From contig NZ_CP026108.1 in assembly GCF_002902965.1 (NCBI RefSeq), positions 682,001 to 746,000 on the forward strand: 64,000 nucleotides of DNA, read 5' to 3'. Position 1 is the first letter of the stretch; the number at the start of each line of letters is the position of its first letter. The position numbers were made by a program, and so were the translations under genes. The notes beneath the pieces were generated by a model. The model made no database searches and was not told the DNA's origin. It worked only from the letters and a program-made list of their open reading frames with translations. This DNA comes from Paraburkholderia hospita. GTDB taxonomy: Bacteria > Pseudomonadota > Gammaproteobacteria > Burkholderiales > Burkholderiaceae. Positions 4,055 to 64,000 of this stretch are shown here, piece after piece.

Positions 4055-6118
4055 TTACGATCCGCACACATTTTCCCCCTTGCGCCCGCGTATGAGAGAA
4101 AGGGCAGCTTCATCCTCGGTTGTGAGCAGGTTTGCGCCCACGAGCTTCTCCTTGCACACGGCTTCAGCCAGGCTTCGACCTCGATTCTCCATGAGCCATC
4201 GGATAGGCCACACCCGCACGGTCTGATCCGCGGATGCGGTCACCACCCGTCGACCGTCCGGGCTGAAGGCGGCGCACCAAACCGGCCCGTCATGGCCGGT
4301 GAGCTGCGCGATCATCTGTCCGGTCGCCGCGTCCCACACCCGCGCGGTTTTGTCATCGGACGCAGTCACCACCCGCCGGCCGTCCGGGCTGAACGCGGCG
4401 GACCTAACCGGCCCCTGATGCCCGGTGAGCTGCGCGATCATCTGTCCGGTCGCCGCGTCCCACACCCGCGCGGTTTTGTCATCGGACGCGGTCACCAACC
4501 GGCGGCCGTCCGGGCTGAAGGCGGCGGAAGATACTGCCCCCTGATGCCCGCTGAGCAGCGCGATCTGTTTGCCCGTGGACACGTCCCACACCCGCGCAGT
4601 CCAATCCGAGGACGCGGTCACCACCCGCTGGCCGTCCGGACTGAAGGCGGTGGAAGATACTGCCCCCTGATGCCCGCTTAGCAGCGCGATCTGTTTGCCC
4701 GTGGACACGTCCCACACCCGCGCGGCCCTATCACAGGACGCAGTCACCATCCGCTGGCCGTCCGGGCTGAAGGCGGTGGAAACAACCGACCCCTGATGCT
4801 CGCTGAGCGGCAAGATCTGGTTGCCCATCGCCGCGTCCCACGCGCGCGCGGTCCGATCCACGGACACGGTTACCACCCGGTGGCCGTCCGGACTGAAGCT
4901 GGCGGAGTTCACCGGCCCCTGATGTCCGGTGAGCTGCGTGATCACCTGGCCGGTCGCCACATCCCACACCCGCGCGGTTTTATCATCGGACGCAGTCACC
5001 ACCCGCCGGCCGTCGAGGCTGAAGGCGGCGGAGCTCACCGGTCCCTGATGCCCCGTGAGCTGCGCGATCACCCGGCCGGTCGCCGCATCCCACACCCGCG
5101 CGGTACCGTCTGCTGACGCGGTCACCGCCCGCCGGCCGTCCGGGCTGAAGGTGGCGGAATAAACCAGATCCTGATGCCCGCTGAGCTGCACAATCTTTTT
5201 GCCCGTAGCCACGTCCCACACACGCGCGGTCTTGTCCGCGGACGCGGTCACCACCCGCCGGCCGTCCGGGCTGAAAGCGGCGGAGCTCACCGGCTCGTGA
5301 TGCCCGGTGAGCTGCGCGATCACCTGGCCGGTCGACGCATCCCACACCCGCGCGGTCCTGTCTGCGGACGCGGTCACCACCCGCCGGCCGTCCGGGCTGA
5401 AGGCGGCGGTGAAAACCGGTCGCTGATGCCCGGTAAGCTGTGCGATCACCTGACCGGTCGCCGCGTCCCACACACGAGCGGTGCTGTCCGCGGACGCGGT
5501 CACCACGCGCTGGCCGTTCGGACTGAAGGCGGCGGAATAAACCAGATCCTGATGCCCGCTGAGCTTTACAATCTGTTTGCCCGTCTGCGCGTCCCACACA
5601 CGCGCAGTCCTATCCCGCGATGCGGTCACCACACGCTGACCGCCCGGGCTGAATGTCGCGGAATAAACCCACCCCTGATGCCCGCTGAGCAGTGCGATCT
5701 GTTTGCCCGTAGCCGCGTCCCACACGCGCGCGGTTCCGTCCCAGGATGCCGTCACCACCCGCTTACCATCTGGGCTGAAGACGGCGGAATCAACCGCATC
5801 CTGATGCCCGCTGAGCAGCGCAATTTGCATTGATGCATGCGCGCCACGCATCAGTTCCAGCTCTGCTTCTACCGATCCCGGCGAAAGCCAACCCTTCCCC
5901 ATCGCCAGCATGGCGAAACGCATTCCGCGATCATAATTTCCCGCGTCGTTCGCGGTCGCCGCGGCCGACGCCAATACAAGGGAAGTCTGGCGTGCGACCG
6001 TCCGAGTCTGGTGAATGATCCACCCACCCGTCACAATCACAATGACTGCGATTACGCCCAACAGTACCTGGATGCGTCGCTGCGCGCGCCCTGTCCGTAA
6101 CGTACTCATATTTCTCAA
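4055..6118 (-). CDS. Membrane-anchored WD40 repeat protein, 13 repeats
   Basis: A 687-residue protein. A single membrane helix lies at about residues 17-36 ([18 protein letters not shown]). It is followed by the short helical region seen before the propeller in nSTAND NTPase-WD40 proteins, then 13 WD40 repeats of exactly 42 residues at about 98-643 (core [21 protein letters not shown]), and a 40-residue tail. WD40 propellers are protein-binding scaffolds. In bacteria this tail and linker usually follow an NTPase or peptidase domain, and none is present here. The DNA just upstream is transposase debris, so a 5' part may have been lost; alternatively the short anchored form is native. Repeats are so alike that recombination must keep them homogeneous. 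Confidence 0.85.
4190..5827 (-). repeat. 13 tandem 126-bp repeats encoding WD40 blades
   Basis: Thirteen head-to-tail units of 126 bp lie within the WD40 gene. The plus strand shows the same words every 126 bp: 'cacccgccggccgtccgggctga' shortened to its core ccggccgtccgggctga, and tcccacacccgcgcggt. Units vary mainly at a few codons per blade. No unit length changes are seen, so copy-number change by unequal recombination would keep the frame. Confidence 0.9.
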
Positions 6119-35782: not shown

Positions 35783-36030
35783 ATTCGCCTCACGTCGAAA
35801 GCCCGCTCTGGGCGGCAATTTCGAGTTCGCCGGCCTCTAATTCGAAATCAGACTTCCAGAACGTGGTACCTTTCCTACCCACCATTTGCCCGACGGATCG
35901 TCCGATCTCACTAGCCCGAAGTCGCATGGCGCCTCGACCCCAGTCTAATGCTAGCGATTACTTTCGCCAATGCCGGCACGACGCGAGTGCAATTGAGCGA
36001 TATGGACGTCTCTCTGATCTAACCCTGCCG
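35783..36030. other. Intergenic region upstream of the MASE4 kinase
   Basis: No gene seen. It separates the kinase start from the degraded gene at 36031-36557. Confidence 0.4.
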
Positions 36031-36557
36031 AAAGATGCGCCGCCCACTAATGAAGTTGAGTGGAAAAGACCCCGGATGCGTCCCGAAGGGAGGGCGATGT
36101 CCATTCCTTCGGAAAATACGTCGGCTCCGGACGCCTGCCAGACCAGATCGCCATGTAGTGACAGGCGTGCAATTTCCAGTTCCCCGTGCGAAATGAGGGC
36201 AGCCCGCTCGCTGTCCCAGTAGACACAAAAGCGCGTCGCGGTATCGACCCGAGTTGATCAGATTAACTGATAGGGTCACACCAACGACATGCACGCCAGA
36301 TGATCACCGACAGCCAAGTAAACTTTGTCGTCAATCACCAACGCTGAACGCTCATGCACCGCGGAGCATCCTCCACCGGCACCAGCGACCGTAATGCCGC
36401 TGCCGTTTAACTCGACACCATGGATAGACGTCAGCGAGCCGTTCGTAAGACGCACTTCAAGCGGGTACGAATGCACATTGTCTTGTGACTCGAACGAGTA
36501 TGTTGGCTCATTCACAACTCTCAGCGAGCCATATTGCGAGTCTATTTTCGTATGCAC
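36031..36557 (-). pseudogene. Conserved hypothetical protein with two in-frame TGA codons
   Basis: From ATG 36557 the frame reads MHTKIDSQYGSLRVVNEPTY, FESQDNVHSYPLEVRLTNG, VIDDKVYLAVGDHLACMSL. Two TGA codons follow in the same frame (36276-36278 and 36258-36260), after which it continues STRVDTATRFCVYWDSERAA, ISHGELEIARLSLHGD and DVFSEGMDI. I recall relatives reading '...YQLIW' at the second TGA, so a Trp codon became a stop. The 3' limit is approximate. It is a small beta-propeller-like conserved protein of unknown role, now non-functional as written. Confidence 0.65.
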
Positions 36558-36785
36558 TCTCCGTTCTCATTTGCTGATCAGGAGGTCGCCGTCTCGGGGC
36601 GATTGTCAGCGAATTCAGCGGCGACGTCGAACGGCCGCTCCTGGCCGATCACGGTCCGACGAAGGAGGGACTCGGTGAGCCAACGGCAATGCTGCATGCA
36701 AACGGCATAAGCAGACCCATTCCGGCATACACAGCTTCTCTAACACGACGGCCGCTCGTGAGAAACATTAAAGTCGCGCTGGTTT

Positions 36786-37778
36786 TCAGAGGGTTTGCGC
36801 GGTTGGGGTAATCTGGAAGCCAAGCGCCGTGGCGCGGCGCCTGAGTGCCTCGATGCTGCGCTGGCGCTGCTGCTCCTCATAGCGCTGCTGCCCCTGGTCA
36901 ACGAAGGCCTCGCCACGCGTGAGCATGAAGTACACCATGCGGGCGAGCTTGTGGGCGACCGCCGTGTTGGCGCGCGGCTTGTCCATACGCGCGCACAACC
37001 GCCGGTAGAATGCACCAATCGCCGAGTCGTTGCGCGACAGGCTCATGGCGGCGAGCTTCAGCGCCTGACGCACCCGGTTCGCCGAGCGGCGCGTGCGCGC
37101 GCTCAGGACCTTGCCGCCGCTGATCTTCGTGCCCGGACACAGACCCAGCCACGAGCAGAAGTGTTTCACGCTGGCAAAGCGGCTCAGGTCCGGACCAATC
37201 TCGGAGAGGATCGTCATCACCGTTGTCACGGACAGCCCGTTGATACGTGTGAGGTCGACGCCCGCCCAGCGCGCAAGCGCCGTCCGTGCATCAAACTGCG
37301 GCGTGTTCTTGCCGCAGCGCTTGCCGGGACCTGACAGTTTGACGTCGTGAACCCCAAGTGGCCTGAGCAGCGCCTCGATCTTCTCATCGCATTCGACGAC
37401 GCGTTGAGCCAGACTGTCGTACATCGCAAGCGCCTGCTGCAGCACGAACAGGTGCTCGTCACGCCAGTTGCCGGTCAGCGCCCGTTCGATTTCGGCCGCA
37501 CTGGCCTTGACGCGGCCGTGGCGATGACTGGCCAGTACTTTCGGATCGCGCTCGCCGGCGACAATCGCGCGCACGATCGCCTGCCCGGTCATGCCCATCA
37601 CATCCGTGAGCACCTCGGTGAGCTGGAGATTCATCTGCACCAGCGCCTTCTGCATGCGCAGCACCCAGCTGGCCTGCTCGGTGAGCAGCACCTCGCGGTG
37701 GCGCGCCACCGCGCGCACCACGCAGACCTCGTCGCCAGGGCGCCAGGCCGCTCGCAGCAGCCCCAGGCTCATGAGCTT
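36786..37778 (-). pseudogene. IS110-family transposase ISA copy 1, C-terminal half
   Basis: The frame encodes KLMSLGLLRAAWRPGDEVCV to QITPTAQTL, the C-terminal two-thirds of an IS110-family transposase including the transposase_20 domain (INGLSVTTVMTILSEIGPDL, SWLGLCPGTKISGG). The N-terminal DEDD half lies at 39408-39746 on the same strand; joining both at ...QWLQ|K|LMSL restores the gene. The interruption is the 1.6-kb element ISB. IS110 enzymes catalyse recombination through a DEDD/Ser site. Confidence 0.88.
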
Positions 37779-38048
37779 TATATGGACGCCTCCCGTTTGC
37801 AAAGGGTTTCGAGCGATCTGACGTGACAGGAACGGCTGCAGCTTTATATGCGGCCTTGTTGCAGCTGGCATTTCCCGCTGCGGGCCCCTATGGAATCCGC
37901 TGACTCGCACCTCATTTCTGCAACGAGCTCGAAGCTCTTACAGCTCATTCAGGTTTGGCGAGTCCCCGGTCCGACCTGTTTTGCCATCACTCCCGATTCC
38001 CAGCGCAACCATTTGACGTTCCATCGGTTCATACGCAACGCTACTCGC

Positions 38049-39068
38049 TCATGCAGGCTTGGTGCTCACGTATCCCCTCTGATAAGGCCGGTCGTGGGCC
38101 AATACCGCCCAGATGGTCCGTGCCATCTTGTTGGCCAGCGCAACGACCACCACATTCGGTGGCCGTCGCTTCTTCATCTGCTCGATCCAGGGATCAGGCT
38201 GTTTCGCGTTCGTGATAACACTGCGTGCACCGTGAATGAGCAGCGTGCGCAAATAGGTGTCGCCGCGCTTGCTGATCCCATGCAGCTTCACCTTGCCACC
38301 CGAACCTGTTTGTTTCGGTACGAGCCCGATGCAGGCGGCAAACTCGCGGCCGGAGCGGAACGCTTTTGCGTCGCCTATCGTCGCGACTGCGGCTGTCGCC
38401 GTCAGCAGCCCGACGCCAGGAATCTCGCTGATCGCCTTGACCTCCTGGTCTTCCTTTTTCCATTCGCGCATCCGTCGCTCGATCGTGGCGATCTGCTCGT
38501 CCAGGCCGGTCAATCCGTTCCACTGCTCGCGCAGCGTGTCGATCAGTGCCGCTGGCAAGCGATCGGCAACCCGGGCCAGCACGTCGGGCATTGCCCTGTC
38601 CAGCGGCGCTCGGCCCTTGGCCATGACTTCGCCGTACTCCGTAAGCAGTCCGCGCAGCGCGTTGATCTGCATCGTGCGGAACTTCACGAGCTGCTCGCGT
38701 GTACGGTGCAGCGCCAGCATCGCCTGCTGCATCTCGGTCTTGATCGCGACGGGCTTGCTCGGCTGCTGTACCGCCAGCCAGATCGCCCGGGCGTCGGCGG
38801 GATCCTTCTTGTTGCGGATGTTAAACGCCTTCACGTATTCCCCGGGCATCAGTTTTACCTGATGGCCCATCCTGGTGAGCTGCCTTGCCCAGTGATGCGC
38901 ACCGCCACACGCTTCCATGCCGATCAGGCACGGTGCACGGTTGACGAAGTACTCGAGAAACTTCGCCCGCTTGATCGGCTTGTTCACGATTTCACCGGTC
39001 TCCTCGTCGATGTGATGCACCTGAAAGACGTTTTTTGCAATGTCGATACCAACTGGAGTCAGCTTCAT
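38049..39068 (-). CDS. ISB transposase (IS110 family)
   Basis: A 339-residue transposase with intact ends. The DEDD (RuvC-like) domain starts KLTPVGIDIAKNVFQVHHID with Asp8/Asp10 region, has the Glu in LIGMEACGGAHHWA, and DPADARA downstream. The transposase_20 domain near 200-330 has ISEIPGVGLLTATAAVA and the conserved region FAACIGLVPKQTGSGGK. IS110 recombinases work with a bridge RNA encoded in the element's non-coding end to choose target and donor DNA. ATG 39068 is the family start; the frame upstream to 40172 merely runs into the ISA N-terminal half. This is the only apparently active transposase in the cluster. Confidence 0.93.
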   Translation of the reverse strand: MKLTPVGIDIAKNVFQVHHIDEETGEIVNKPIKRAKFLEYFVNRAPCLIGMEACGGAHHWARQLTRMGHQVKLMPGEYVKAFNIRNKKDPADARAIWLAVQQPSKPVAIKTEMQQAMLALHRTREQLVKFRTMQINALRGLLTEYGEVMAKGRAPLDRAMPDVLARVADRLPAALIDTLREQWNGLTGLDEQIATIERRMREWKKEDQEVKAISEIPGVGLLTATAAVATIGDAKAFRSGREFAACIGLVPKQTGSGGKVKLHGISKRGDTYLRTLLIHGARSVITNAKQPDPWIEQMKKRRPPNVVVVALANKMARTIWAVLAHDRPYQRGYVSTKPA

Positions 39069-39135
39069 GACGCCCTCCTGTGAAGATCTCCATGATCTTC
39101 CAACTTGAGCACTTTGCCCCCGTCCAGGGGAGATC

Positions 39136-39250
39136 TGACGGGTCAAGGGCCCGGGCGTCAGCCCGGGAGTGCAGCGTCCCTTGACGCGGGGAGCGGTTCG
39201 CCATGCTGTGCTCCGGTCGCAAGCGCCGGGCAGGCGCTTGCGACCATGCG
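39136..39250 (-). ncRNA. Structured non-coding end of ISB (candidate bridge RNA)
   Basis: Upstream of the transposase two strong structures occur. GTCAAGGG (39142-39149) pairs with CCCTTGAC (39178-39185), enclosing CCCGGGC/GCCCGGG around a 4-base loop. A 12-bp perfect stem follows (39216-39227 with 39233-39244) with a 5-base loop. The same pair is kept in the second ISB copy and, with different sequence, at 26856-26957. Position and folding agree with bridge RNAs of IS110 elements. The RNA would be read on the transposase strand; its limits are not determined. Confidence 0.6.
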
Positions 39251-39407
39251 AAACCAGCTCCCTGATGTCGTCGTCTGATGCCGTCGTCAAGACCGCGACG
39301 TCCCATGCCATCGTTCGTTTCCGACTTGGCCACGTGATAGCACCTTCCTTAACTCTCCTCATTGCGACCACCTCCGCTATTCGTCGCGTTGGGAGGCGTC
39401 CATACCA

Positions 39408-39746
39408 TTTCTGCAACCACTGGCAATCCTGCACATCGCTCTTGCGCCCCGGCACATACTTCATCTGCCGCGCGTCGACCAGCCAGACCGTCAACCCGCG
39501 CTGCTCCAGCACTTCATACACGGGTATCCAGAATACGCCGGTCGATTCGAGGGCGACCGTGTCAACTCCGCATGCCAGCAGCCAGTCCGCCATCTCGTGC
39601 AGATCGTCGGTCATCGTGCCAAATTCGCGTACCGGCTCTTCAGCCGCCCCTTTGGGCACCGCGACCCAGTGACTCGAGCCGCCAATATCGATCCCCGCCG
39701 CGTTCGGAAACACCTCAGGGCTGTCTTCGCGCTTGCGCATCGCCAT
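39408..39746 (-). pseudogene. IS110-family transposase ISA copy 1, N-terminal half
   Basis: Codons from ATG 39746 (MAMRKREDSPEVFPNAAGID; a second ATG at 39740) to ...DVQDCQWLQK at 39408 encode the N-terminal DEDD part of the ISA transposase: Asp in GIDIGGSSHW, Glu in VALESTGVFW. It is cut by the ISB insertion, and its continuation is at 36786-37778. The uninterrupted protein would be about 440 residues. Confidence 0.88.
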
Positions 39747-40053
39747 CGCTGACCTCATGATCGTGGGTGGACGGCAGCGCCCTGGGATGCGTCGAAATTG
39801 ACTCGATCTCGTGAACGGGATGCAGCTCGCGCTGCTCACCACTGTCGCCGACGAATCCCGGACCATGCTCTCAAGCGGGCTCACTTCGCGGCGGGCAGGC
39901 CGCCAGTGCGCACCATTGGTCTGTCGGTCATCGCGGCGCCGCCGTCCGCCTTTATACCGCGTCTCTTGCGTCGTCCCGTTTCTCCGCACACGCCGGCCCC
40001 GGCACGGGGTTGAATTGCTCTCGAGAAACATCGCATGGAAGTACGCGTGGTTT
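39747..40053. other. Non-coding upstream end of ISA copy 1
   Basis: Lies between the ISA copy 1 start and the stop of ISA copy 2. The sequence around 40025-40065 (ctcgagaaacat...tggttttcag) matches the region beyond the ISA copy 1 stop (36745-36790), so it contains the right end of ISA copy 2. The remainder probably holds the left non-coding end of copy 1. No gene seen. Confidence 0.5.
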
Positions 40054-40494
40054 TCAGGCCGTTTTCGTGTCGGGAGTGATCTGGAAACCAAGCGCGGACG
40101 CGCGGCGTCTGAGCGCCGCGATGCTGCGCTGGCGCTGCTGTTCCTTGTAGTGCTGCTGATCCTGGTCGACAAAGGCTTCGCCGCGCGTGAGCATTAAGTA
40201 CACCATGCGCGCAAGCTTGTGGGCGACAGCGGTGTTGGCGCGCGGCATGTCCATGCGGGCGCACAGCCGGCGGTAGAACGCGCCGAGCGCGGAATCGTTG
40301 CGTGACAGGCTCATTGCGGCAAGGTGCTCAGCGCGCGCACCCGGCGCTCCGCCAACCGCGTGCGCGCGCTGAGCACCTTGCCGCCGCTGATCTTCGTGCC
40401 GGGGCACCGCCCCAGCCATGAACAGAAGTGCTTGATGCTGGCAAAGCGGCTCAGGTCCGGGCCGATCTCAGAGAGGATCGTCATCACATTCGGT
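40054..40494 (-). pseudogene. ISA copy 2 transposase, C-terminal remnant
   Basis: Codons from about 40494 (MTILSEIGPDLSRFASIKHF) to the stop at 40054 (QITPDTKTA) match the C-terminal 145 residues of ISA copy 1, differing at roughly one residue in ten. The frame is broken at 40321-40379, where a perfect inverted repeat has replaced part of the gene. Its 5' side is fused to the ISB copy 2 transposase near 40494. Confidence 0.85.
40321..40379. repeat. Perfect 20-bp inverted repeat inside ISA copy 2
   Basis: 40321-40340 is the exact reverse complement of 40360-40379, with a 19-base spacer. The right arm matches ISA copy 1 well, while the left arm does not. Copy 1 has only an imperfect palindrome here. 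This is what a template-switch that copies one arm onto the other produces. It shifts the reading frame of ISA copy 2. Confidence 0.85.
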
Positions 40495-41400
40495 GGCCGT
40501 CGCTTCTTCATCTGCTCTATCCAGGGATCAGGCTGTTTCGCGTTCGTGATAACACTGCGTGCACCGTGAATAAGCAGCGTGCGCAAATAGGTGTCGCCGC
40601 GCTTGCTGATCCCATGCAGCTTCACCTTGCCACCCGAACCTGTTTGTTTCGGTACGAGCCCGATGCAGGCGGCAAACTCGCGGCCGGAGCGGAACGCTTT
40701 TGCGTCGCCTATCGTGGCGACTGCCGCTGTCGCCGTCAGCAGCCCGACGCCAGGAATCTCGCTGATCGCCTTGACCTCCTGGTCTTCCTTTTTCCATTCG
40801 CGCATCCGTCGCTCGATCGTGGCGATCTGCTCGTCCAGGCCGGTCAATCCGTTCCACTGTTCGCGCAGCGTGTCGATCAGTGCCGCTGGCAAGCGATCGG
40901 CAACCCGGGCCAGCACGTCGGGCATTGCCCTGTCCAGCGGCGCTCGGCCCTTGGCCATGACTTCGCCGTACTCCGTAAGCAGTCCGCGCAGCGCGTTGAT
41001 CTGCATCGTGCGGAACTTCACGAGCTGCTCACGTGTACGGTGCAGCGCCAGCATCGCCTGCTGCATCTCGGTCTTGATCGCCACGGGCTTGCTCGGCTGC
41101 TGTACCGCCAGCCAGATCGCCCGGGCGTCGGCGGGATCCTTCTTGTTGCGGATGTTAAACGCCTTCACGTATTCCCCGGGCATCAGTTTTACCTGATGGC
41201 CCATCCTGGTGAGCTGCCTTGCCCAGTGATGCGCACCGCCACACGCTTCCATGCCGATCAGGCAGAGTGCGCGGTTGACGAAGTACTCGAGAAACTTCGC
41301 CCGCTTGATCGGCTTGTTCACGATTTCCGGTCTCCTCGTCGATGTGATGCACCTGAAAGACGTGTTTTGCAATGTCGATACCAACTGGAGTCAGCTTCAT
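40495..41400 (-). pseudogene. ISB copy 2 transposase, frameshifted and 3'-truncated
   Basis: Starting at ATG 41400 (MKLTPVGIDIAKHVFQVHHI) the gene matches ISB copy 1 almost base for base. Two bases are missing after EETG (near 41328), shifting the frame; the second frame runs EIVNKPIKRAKF... to ...KKRRPPNV at about 40495 and is then fused in frame to the ISA copy 2 tail. The ISB 3' end and its left inverted repeat are lost by this recombination. The product cannot be an active transposase. Confidence 0.88.
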
Positions 41401-41504
41401 GACGCCCTCCTGGTTTGCCTGTGAAGATCTCCATGATCTTCCAACTTAGGCCACTTTAATGCTTGGTGCCGGGACCGCGTCCAGGTGGACGACAACGTCT
41501 GACG

Positions 41505-41620
41505 GGTCAAGGGCCCGGGCGTCAGTCCGGGAGTGCAGCGTCCCTTGACGCGGGGAGCGGTTCGCCATGCTGTGTTCTGGTCGCAAGCGCGGCATTCAGG
41601 CGCTTGCGACCATGCGAAAC
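41505..41620 (-). ncRNA. Structured non-coding end of ISB copy 2
   Basis: Same two-hairpin arrangement as at 39136-39250: gtcaaggg/cccttgac outer stem with a ccgggc inner stem (one base changed, so one pair is weakened), then a second stem gtcgcaagcg/cgcttgcgac with a larger loop. The changes lie mostly in loops, and the outer stems are kept. Confidence 0.5.
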
Positions 41621-41717
41621 CAGCTCCCTGATATTGCCGTCTGATGCCGTCGTCAATACCGCGACGCCCATGCCATCGTTCGTTACCCATTCCGACCACC
41701 TCCGCTATTCGCGCGGT

Positions 41718-41772
41718 GGGAGGCGTCCATACCATTTCTGCAGCCACTGGCAATCCATCACATCGCTCTGCT
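41718..41772 (-). mobile_element. Right terminus of ISB copy 2 and abutting ISA copy 2 fragment
   Basis: GGGAGGCGTCCATA at 41718-41731 is the ISB inverted repeat. Directly beyond it, about 40 bases encode SDVMDCQWLQ on the minus strand, the ISA transposase up to the same codon at which ISB copy 1 is inserted. The ISA residues differ from copy 1 (SDVQDCQW there), so this is a separate ISA copy. Upstream of 41772 the ISA sequence ends. Confidence 0.8.
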
Positions 41773-42150
41773 ATGGCCGAGTGCAGCTTCATGCAATGAG
41801 CATACGTGGTCTTCAATCTCGCAAGGCTGCGATCGGCAGCACGCGACCCCATATAGCGGACGGTCGCGTCTTATGAAAGCGGTCGCTGGCGAATTGTCCA
41901 ATCATCCAGGAATGATCGCTCAGCGTTACATAGATATCGGCGCGTTCGCGAGCCCGTCAAAGCCTTGAGATCGGGTAGTGATCCGCCAAGGTAGCTCAGC
42001 GGCCTAGACCTTACTGGAGTATCTCCCGCCGCCTATGCACGTGTAGGGCGTTTGCCCATCCTTCGGCATGGCAGTGCGACCAGGGAGAGGTTGCCACAGC
42101 CCGTGCTAACATCATTTGTTATTCGATCCCGTATTCCAATGACTCGAGCA
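41773..42150. other. No supported gene; region upstream of hemC
   Basis: Contains no coding frame I can support. The hemC promoter should lie here. A string resembling a tRNA D-arm (ggtagctcagcgg near 41990) is not part of a foldable tRNA. Confidence 0.5.
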
Positions 42151-43134
42151 ATGAATTCCGAGACACTTGCGCCCACGCCGCCCGCCACGCTTGTGATCGC
42201 GTCGCGGGAAAGCCGGCTTGCCATGTGGCAGGCCGAGCATGTGCGAGTTGCGCTGCACAAATTATATCCATCTTGTGACGTAAAAATCCTCGGAATGAGG
42301 ACGCGCGGCGATCAGATTCTCGATCGCACGTTGTCGAAGGTCGGCGGCAAGGGGCTGTTCGTGAAAGAGCTGGAAAACGCGCTTGCCGACGGCCGCGCCG
42401 ATCTCGCCGTTCACTCGCTGAAAGACGTGCCGATGGAAATTCCCGAGGGCTTCGCGCTGTCGACCATTATGGAGCGCGAAGATCCGCGCGATGCGTTCGT
42501 CTCGAATCAATATGATTCACTGGCCGAGCTGCAGCCCGGCAGCGTGGTCGGCACGTCGAGCCTGCGCCGCGAAGCGATGCTGCGCGCGCGTTATCCCGAA
42601 CTGGTTGTGAAGCCGCTGCGCGGCAATCTCGACACGCGGCTCAGCAAACTCGATCACGGCGACTACGCGGCCATCATTCTCGCTGCGGCGGGCCTCAAGC
42701 GTCTGGGTCTCGGCGACCGGATCCGCTCACTGCTGGATCCCAACGAAAGCCTCCCAGCGGCGGGCCAAGGCGCCCTCGGCATCGAGATTCGCGCCGGACG
42801 AGCCGATCTCGCTGCGTGGCTCGCGCCGCTGCATCACGAACACACAGCGGCCGCGGTCGAAGCCGAGCGCATGGTGTCGCGCGCGCTGGGCGGCAGCTGC
42901 GAAGTGCCGCTCGCTGCGTATGCGACATGGCACGACGGCGCGCTGCACCTGCGCGGCGTCGTCGCGACGCCGGACGGCCAGCGCGTGCTTAGCGCCCGCG
43001 CATCGGCGACCGCGGCAACCACAGACGCCGCGCTCGAACTGGGCCGCGAGGTGGCAAGCGAGCTTGAAGCGCAAGGCGCGCTCGACATCGTGCGTGCGCT
43101 CTCAACGGCGAGCGGCCCGGCGATGGGCTCGTGA
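42151..43134 (+). CDS. hemC: Hydroxymethylbilane synthase (porphobilinogen deaminase)
   Basis: A 327-residue enzyme with all family motifs: [47 protein letters not shown] (catalytic Asp), [21 protein letters not shown], and GGSCEVPLA with the Cys that holds the dipyrromethane cofactor. It joins four porphobilinogen molecules into hydroxymethylbilane in haem synthesis. ATG 42151 ([13 protein letters not shown]) matches Burkholderia starts; ATG 42139 is an alternative. Normally hemD and hemX follow; here hemD is cut after its first codons (see 43134). The gene itself is intact. Confidence 0.95.

Positions 43135-57443: not shown

Positions 57444-64000
<6,557 letters not shown>

Follow-up and report, generated by a model that had tools for sequence, protein, structure and literature searches.

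Why should two copies of one insertion sequence (IS) interrupt the transposase gene of another element at one and the same codon? The question arises from a stretch of the Paraburkholderia hospita genome (11.5 Mb, 6 contigs), here called the window (G000:C4:682001-746000, 64,000 nucleotides). Below, ISB is the inserted element, ISA the IS110-type element hit by ISB, and ISC a separate IS1111 lineage. The original prediction had proposed a programmed, RNA-guided target within a rival transposase gene, and computation supports this through the guide match, the covariation and the flanks of related elements. In our view, guide-directed insertion of ISB into the ISA transposase gene is very probably the best explanation overall. 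In such a mechanism, the ISB DEDD transposase would most likely work with a short RNA produced from the 3' non-coding region of the element and bound by the protein. The sequence matching the guide corresponds to ISA codons WLQ-K-LMS, within the DEDD domain, and pairing there would direct ISB to insert in a single orientation.

The insertion site in ISA

The first copy of ISB lies inside an ISA element, with the following features:

36755..40022, minus strand: ISA1, an IS110-type element with ISB copy 1 inside (3268-bp nested unit)
36786..37778, minus strand: 3' part of the ISA1 transposase gene
37779..39410, minus strand: ISB copy 1, an IS1111-group insertion sequence of 1632 bp
38049..39068, minus strand: ISB transposase, 339 amino acids, DEDD_Tnp_IS110 and Transposase_20 domains
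39391..39403, minus strand: ATGGACGCCTCCC, the subterminal inverted repeat on the left, 7 bp inside the element
37782..37794, minus strand: GGGAGGCGTCCAT, the subterminal inverted repeat on the right, 3 bp inside the element
39408..39416, minus strand: TTGCAGAAA, the left half-target in ISA, at the junction
37768..37778, minus strand: right half of the ISA target, AAGCTCATGAG

The ends of ISB were set by the 7-bp/3-bp end rule of subterminal repeats. As had been predicted, the element extends from 37779 to 39410 and splits ISA between codons WLQ and K-LMSL. Since an uninterrupted ISA reading CTGCAGAAACTCATGAGT exists in the same genome, the ISB junction is fixed. The AAA of the left half-target belongs to the element end by the 7-bp rule, yet it is also present in the uninterrupted site. 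The ISA unit ends at 40022 and its frame starts near 39760. Genome searches with ISA returned no full-length uninterrupted match in this genome. Two relatives uninterrupted at the site were found on contigs C1 and C5, with 79-85% identity over the aligned parts; on C5 only part of the element is matched, and on C1 the frame is about 35 residues short relative to ISA1. The C1 frame carries both the DEDD and the Transposase_20 domains of the IS110 group, and WLQK occupies its residues 161-164, within the DEDD match (68-212).

Nested IS elements are common in IS-rich replicons, and ISA copies might simply form a tolerated landing pad in a pile-up of elements without specific targeting. However, ISB is found twice at the identical base position and in the same orientation, and the 16-base target TGCAGAARCTCATGAG occurs exactly at only two other places in the 11.5 Mb, C1:3983024 and C5:463038, both of which are uninterrupted ISA copies. 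A further 12 sites have 2 mismatches, which is the chance level (9 sites at up to 2 mismatches for a reversed control pattern). We consider a chance origin of the arrangement to be extremely improbable.

The domains, repeats and motif of ISB make it a member of the IS1111 group. Its transposase combines an N-terminal DEDD (RuvC-like) domain with a C-terminal Transposase_20 domain, its repeats are subterminal (7 bp from the left end and 3 bp from the right), and the GL-P----S(t)G motif is present as GLVPKQTGSG, as read from the translation. The earlier label, IS110-family, is corrected here to the IS1111 group, and the guide region is therefore expected 3' of the transposase gene. Members of this group have their longer non-coding stretch downstream of that gene. 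In ISB the 3' non-coding region spans about 270 nt and is similar in relatives, but the 5' region is also long: the left repeat lies 335 nt from the start codon, against a median of 121 nt in 84 elements, and only L150 otherwise exceeds 150 nt (369 nt). Palindromes are visible by eye in the extra part of this region (window 39124-39380). IS884 of Cupriavidus necator H16, so named in the annotation of a plasmid record, is 77.8% identical to ISB over 77% of the query.

A second, truncated ISB copy lies next to the first unit:

40482..41737, minus strand: ISB copy 2, with left end, 5' region and about 920 coding bases
40023..40487, minus strand: 3' remnant of ISA2, apparently abutting ISA1
41735..41768, minus strand: left-flank remnant of ISA2, GAGCGATGTGATGGATTGCCAGTGGCTGCAGAAA
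40311..41384, minus strand: open frame created by a deletion, joining an N-terminal part of ISB to a C-terminal part of ISA

The left repeat of ISB2 is at 41730-41718, its host ISA2 reads SDVMDCQW, and the insertion is at the same ISA codon as that of ISB1. ISB2 has lost its right end and guide region through a deletion joining ISB to ISA near 40482-40487; the resulting fused frame holds two Transposase_20 stretches. The coding parts of ISB1 and ISB2 are identical at 907 of 919 bases (1.3% difference), and their 5' regions at 276 of 300 bases, with 7 gaps (8% difference). The 3' parts of ISA1 and ISA2 are 80-86% identical depending on stretch and aligner (14-20% difference). Over 34 bases, the left flank of ISA2 has 3 differences from ISA1, including one at a distance of 6 bases from the end of ISB, and a single difference from the C1 ISA, which places it in a lineage nearer the C1 copy. 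The left junction and the small coding difference thus bear out the original prediction of near-identical ISB sequences at one codon of diverged ISA copies.

Because the ISA flanks are far more diverged than ISB, the two insertions in the window look separate. We may also hypothesize a single insertion of ISB into ISA, with copy 2 derived by duplication or gene conversion of another ISA copy. In support of this alternative, the ISB coding parts of the window copies are 98.7% identical, and a whole ISA+ISB unit really was copied between C4:363371 and the window. This unit (C4:363371-366638) shows 3 differences in 3268 bases from window 36755-40022 and contains a third ISB (C4:364395-366026). 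Since the whole unit is near-identical and its flanks are different, the third ISB is a copy of copy 1 and no extra insertion. The flanks of the unit are GGAGA and AATGAAGAC, and the unit was copied recently despite its split ISA transposase. A duplicated segment, the alternative raised by the original prediction, is thus the case for the third copy. It is not the case for copy 2, where the flanks are more diverged than ISB: a simple duplication predicts even divergence. A conversion tract would have to stop within the 6 bases between the ISB end and the ISA base typical of the other lineage, and the 24 differences and 7 gaps in the 5' regions also argue against a single event. The right side of copy 2 is lost and conversion from that side cannot be checked, so that the claim of two separate insertions gains from the uneven divergence but leaves gene conversion some weight; a single insertion seems to us unlikely. 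Under guide-directed insertion, ISB would have inserted at least twice in this genome, into ISA copies that had already diverged, and the first nested unit would later have moved whole to the other site on the same contig, or have come from there.

The guide region and its predicted RNA

The region 3' of the ISB transposase gene contains the following elements:

37827..38016, minus strand: predicted seekRNA/bridge-RNA-like structured part of the 3' non-coding region, from an alignment of 64 related regions
37902..37964, minus strand: predicted target-binding stem-loop
37942..37949, minus strand: guide 1, AATGAGCT, the reverse complement of which fits the right half-target at 7 of 8 scored bases
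37915..37923, minus strand: guide 2, TTGCAGAAA, the same as the left half-target at 9 of 9 scored positions
37841..37859, minus strand: putative donor-binding loop, ACAAGGCCGCATATAAAGC

The loop that the original prediction had proposed to look for, matching both strands of the ISA target, is present: guides 1 and 2 match opposite strands, in the order reported for IS1111 seekRNAs. Furthermore, the CATATA of the putative donor-binding loop recurs at the right end of ISB.

We derived the structure from 64 aligned regions, three of the 67 selected (L090, L100 and L101) being omitted. RNAalifold gives 31 pairs, and for 15 of them one or more sequences carry a change at both positions. In the outer stem of the target-binding loop, GACTCGC/GCGAGTC, changes on both sides are observed for 6 of 7 pairs, and the internal loop between the stems is variable across relatives. 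We then evaluated 21 pairs forming the two guide-loop domains, picked after viewing the RNAalifold fold of the same sequences. In the 64 sequences, 98.7% of cells are paired and 14 pairs show changes on both sides; none of 500 shuffles scores as high on any of five measures, and sliding the partner by 1-3 columns reduces paired cells to 26-38%. These results support a covarying, seekRNA-like structure that includes the 3' region of ISB and has a loop matching the target. A scan of window 36000-42500 against Rfam (E up to 1) detected no bridge-RNA family. The four Rfam matches, all at 40311-40390, belong to microRNA families and fall below gathering scores; we rejected them.

Guides and targets of related elements

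At E 1e-100 or better, ISB has a match in 103 of the 144 genomes of the genus and in 67 of the 398 genomes of the family. Each genome-set search contributed loci from no more than 30 of its matches, and 76 named loci come from one search. Leaving aside 23 entries without recognizable ends and 11 without a full transposase, and merging copies with identical flanks, we obtained 91 ISB-type elements with recognizable ends. The loop was parsed in 72 and 69 are unique; the elements dropped were 19 in which the loop or left end could not be parsed and 3 duplicates. This set served for a second permutation test, the first having used 58 elements (52 parsed, 49 unique).

Across the 69 elements, the left guide matches its own flank at a mean of 6.80 out of 9 positions, while the maximum of 20,000 shuffles is 4.35 and the match slid by 1-6 bases falls to 2.2-2.8. 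For the right guide, the mean is 7.22 out of 8 (best of 7 offsets), compared to a maximum of 4.48 in 20,000 shuffles and 3.5-3.8 in equal windows further out. In the earlier 49-element set, 0 of 10,000 shuffles scored as high. The ISB guides reach a sum of 16 at their own site and at best 12 at the sites of the other 68 elements. According to the original prediction, unrelated targets elsewhere would have spoken against guided targeting. The targets of the relatives do differ, and each relative's loop on average matches its own flank; since the loops fit these differing flanks, the pattern is as predicted for a programmable guide.

Most IS elements choose their sites without RNA, and the transposase protein alone might recognize the site, the resemblance of the loop being incidental; added protein contacts are possible in any case. 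Yet relatives whose transposases are roughly 50-88% identical to that of ISB have different targets, with loops that fit their own flanks on opposite strands, and the left match is found at a fixed register. RNA-guided choice is, moreover, shown in the family by two published studies (PMC11187229, PMC11208160). Recognition by protein alone thus appears highly improbable.

Several observations weigh against guide-directed insertion. Some elements fit poorly, with a left score of at most 5/9 in 7 of 69 and a right score of at most 5/8 in 9 of 69. Two to three positions of the left score are a near-invariant A, which lifts own and shuffled scores alike. Related elements are non-independent observations; target sharing among relatives should, however, raise the shuffled means, not lower them. 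Relatedness alone can also beat the shuffles without any structure, although the slid controls retain relatedness, and the structure was tested on the sequences from which it was derived. Folded alone, the ISB region is unremarkable (z -1.42; 20 of 200 shuffles equal it), so that the structural argument rests on the alignment. ISB2 can be checked at its left junction only, its own guide region being gone. Finally, among the 144 genus genomes, the ISA-ISB left junction (up to 3 mismatches) is found in this genome only, at 3 places; other left-junction matches are three junctions in two genomes, with different flanks. Because the junction is confined to one genome, ISB itself yields at most two independent events.

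How might such a guide change its target? We built a transposase tree of 86 rows in which L148, L046 and some others form long branches, partly from damaged frames, and we rely only on the fork around ISB. ISB is placed beside L145, L039 and L146 with support 100/98, and these three form a clade (100/100). All four share TGCAGAAA within the left guide, while the right guide is AATGAGCT in ISB, GAGATGGCG in L145 and L146, and GAGAGCGCG in L039. The flanks of L039 and L146 belong to a gene that we read as IS21-like; its match to the C-terminal part of Mu transposase reaches or narrowly exceeds the Pfam cut-off. L145 carries the L146 guide at another site, which also fits. ISB and its sisters thus likely differ by the change of one half-guide, a retargeting that would be possible because both target genes contain LQK codons. 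With a left half-guide in common and two sisters in an unrelated transposase gene, a route of target change may be read from sequence.

Of the 56 right-flank frames of relatives, 40 were compared with Pfam, and 13 were assigned to transposase or integrase-core families, 9 to other families and 18 to none; L077 and L081 in the first category and L050 in the second are below the cut-off. IS-rich neighborhoods may inflate the share of 13/40. A second class of targets involves gene starts. In 43 of 69 targets an ATG lies 6-15 bases into the right side, whereas five windows of equal size further out contain one in 7-15 of 69. Within the final 12 bases on the left, 24 of 69 targets have a Shine-Dalgarno-like motif, compared with 2-9 in four upstream windows. 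In 19 of 69, this motif occurs together with a start codon that opens a frame of at least 50 residues. Part of the ISB-type clade is thus apparently aimed at the gap between ribosome site and start codon. ISB-type insertions between a Shine-Dalgarno-like motif and a start codon are seen, for instance, in L148, L153, L154, L166 and L164, followed by genes for OsmC, a MazE-like antitoxin, HIUase, an FAA hydrolase and one product without a family match. At L069:1196-2212 and upstream, an ISB-type element immediately precedes the start codon of a transposase gene that belongs to the IS110 family and is of the element's own kind; the right guide of this element fits at only 5 of 8 positions.

The ISC lineage involves a further class of site. 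These elements, about 40% identical to ISB, sit within the donor loop of ISB-type guide regions; insertions in or close to the donor loop of other IS1111 elements include L059:2333-3665, L094:3730-5061, L112:3722-5052, L193, L200, L206, L207, L210 and L222. The first three copies were met as neighbors of ISB-type hits, and dedicated searches with ISC as query were therefore run on the 398 family genomes (E 1e-150) and 144 genus genomes (E 1e-80), two overlapping sets. Matches were found in 8 family genomes (10 places) and 21 genus genomes (27 places). Twenty distinct right junctions were read from both searches and the three earlier copies. A match to ISB-type guide regions at E 0.01 or better is observed in 13 of 20 right flanks (weakly, at E 0.003, for L222 and L224) and in 9 of 12 available left flanks; 9 of 12 left flanks also have an IS1111-type transposase match ending 204-264 bases upstream. 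When the three earlier copies are left out, these counts become 11 of 17, 6 of 9 and 6 of 9. In the comparison with ISB-type guide regions, six junctions have no flank match (L195, L199, L206, L207, L215 and L223); L206 and L207 nonetheless have the upstream IS1111-type gene. The reverse complement of the first ISC guide reads CGGATATAT in 18 of 19 readable cases and CGGATGTAT in the other, and the 20 right flanks read GGATATA (11), GAATGTA or GAATATA (5) or differ (4). By eye, the first guide resembles the donor loop, while the second fits less well. Another IS1111 element (L120:3728-5121, 43% identical to ISB), known only as the neighbor of an ISB-type hit, lies beside the same conserved donor-loop box.

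IS110/IS1111 elements may form a network of mutual RNA-guided attacks, with guides aimed at the most conserved parts of their rivals. The targets would comprise IS110 catalytic-domain codons for ISB, an IS21-like transposase gene for two sisters, the stretch separating ribosome site from start codon for part of the ISB-type clade, and the donor loops in guide regions of other IS1111 elements for ISC. We see an even balance of chances for this broader reading; if it is true, ISC insertions would be expected to switch off the guide RNA of the rival.

Elsewhere in the window, two large frames are visible. The first (4055-6118, 687 residues) consists mostly of 42-residue repeats with 126-bp spacing, WD40-like by eye. 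The second (57444-63998, 2184 residues) has repeated modules that look discoidin- and Ig-like by eye.

ISB compared with known RNA-guided elements

The novelty of ISB would be its class of target; the RNA-guided mechanism is already published. A guide aimed at conserved codons of a competitor's transposase gene bears on the choice of targets by guides in nature. Coding motifs that are conserved in mobile elements, being multi-copy and dispensable to the host, would be good landing sites. In the mostly open-access literature searched, we met no description of natural IS1111 targets in transposase codons, at gene starts or in guide-RNA regions.

RNA-guided target choice is established in the IS110/IS1111 families by Siddiquee et al. 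2024 (PMC11187229) and Durrant et al. 2024 (PMC11208160). Like the seekRNA elements ISEc11, ISKpn4, ISPst6 and ISPa11 (PMC11187229), ISB has a DEDD transposase and subterminal repeats 7 and 3 bp from its ends. As in the IS1111 seekRNA elements of the same study, a top-strand match lies 5' of a bottom-strand match in the 3' non-coding region. A natural change of target between relatives has also been described there, for ISEc11 and ISXne4. However, the targets named there include a short linear site, integron attC sites and repetitive extragenic palindromic (REP) sequences, while that of ISB consists of conserved transposase codons of another element. As in the bridge RNA of IS621/IS110 (PMC11208160), target- and donor-binding loops are predicted in a single RNA for ISB; IS1111 members mostly carry this RNA in the right end and IS110-group members mostly in the left end. 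Unlike ISB, IS621 targets REP elements, which are also described as targets of IS110 elements in PMC3281130 and PMC1525189. Parallels in terms of target are IS4321/IS5075, found in terminal repeats of the Tn21 family (Partridge and Hall 2003), and IS1383, for which the inverted repeats of IS1384 serve as the site (Muller et al. 2001); a mobile element is likewise the target there. In those cases the site hit is a terminal repeat, whereas ISB lies in coding sequence for a catalytic domain and carries a matching guide.

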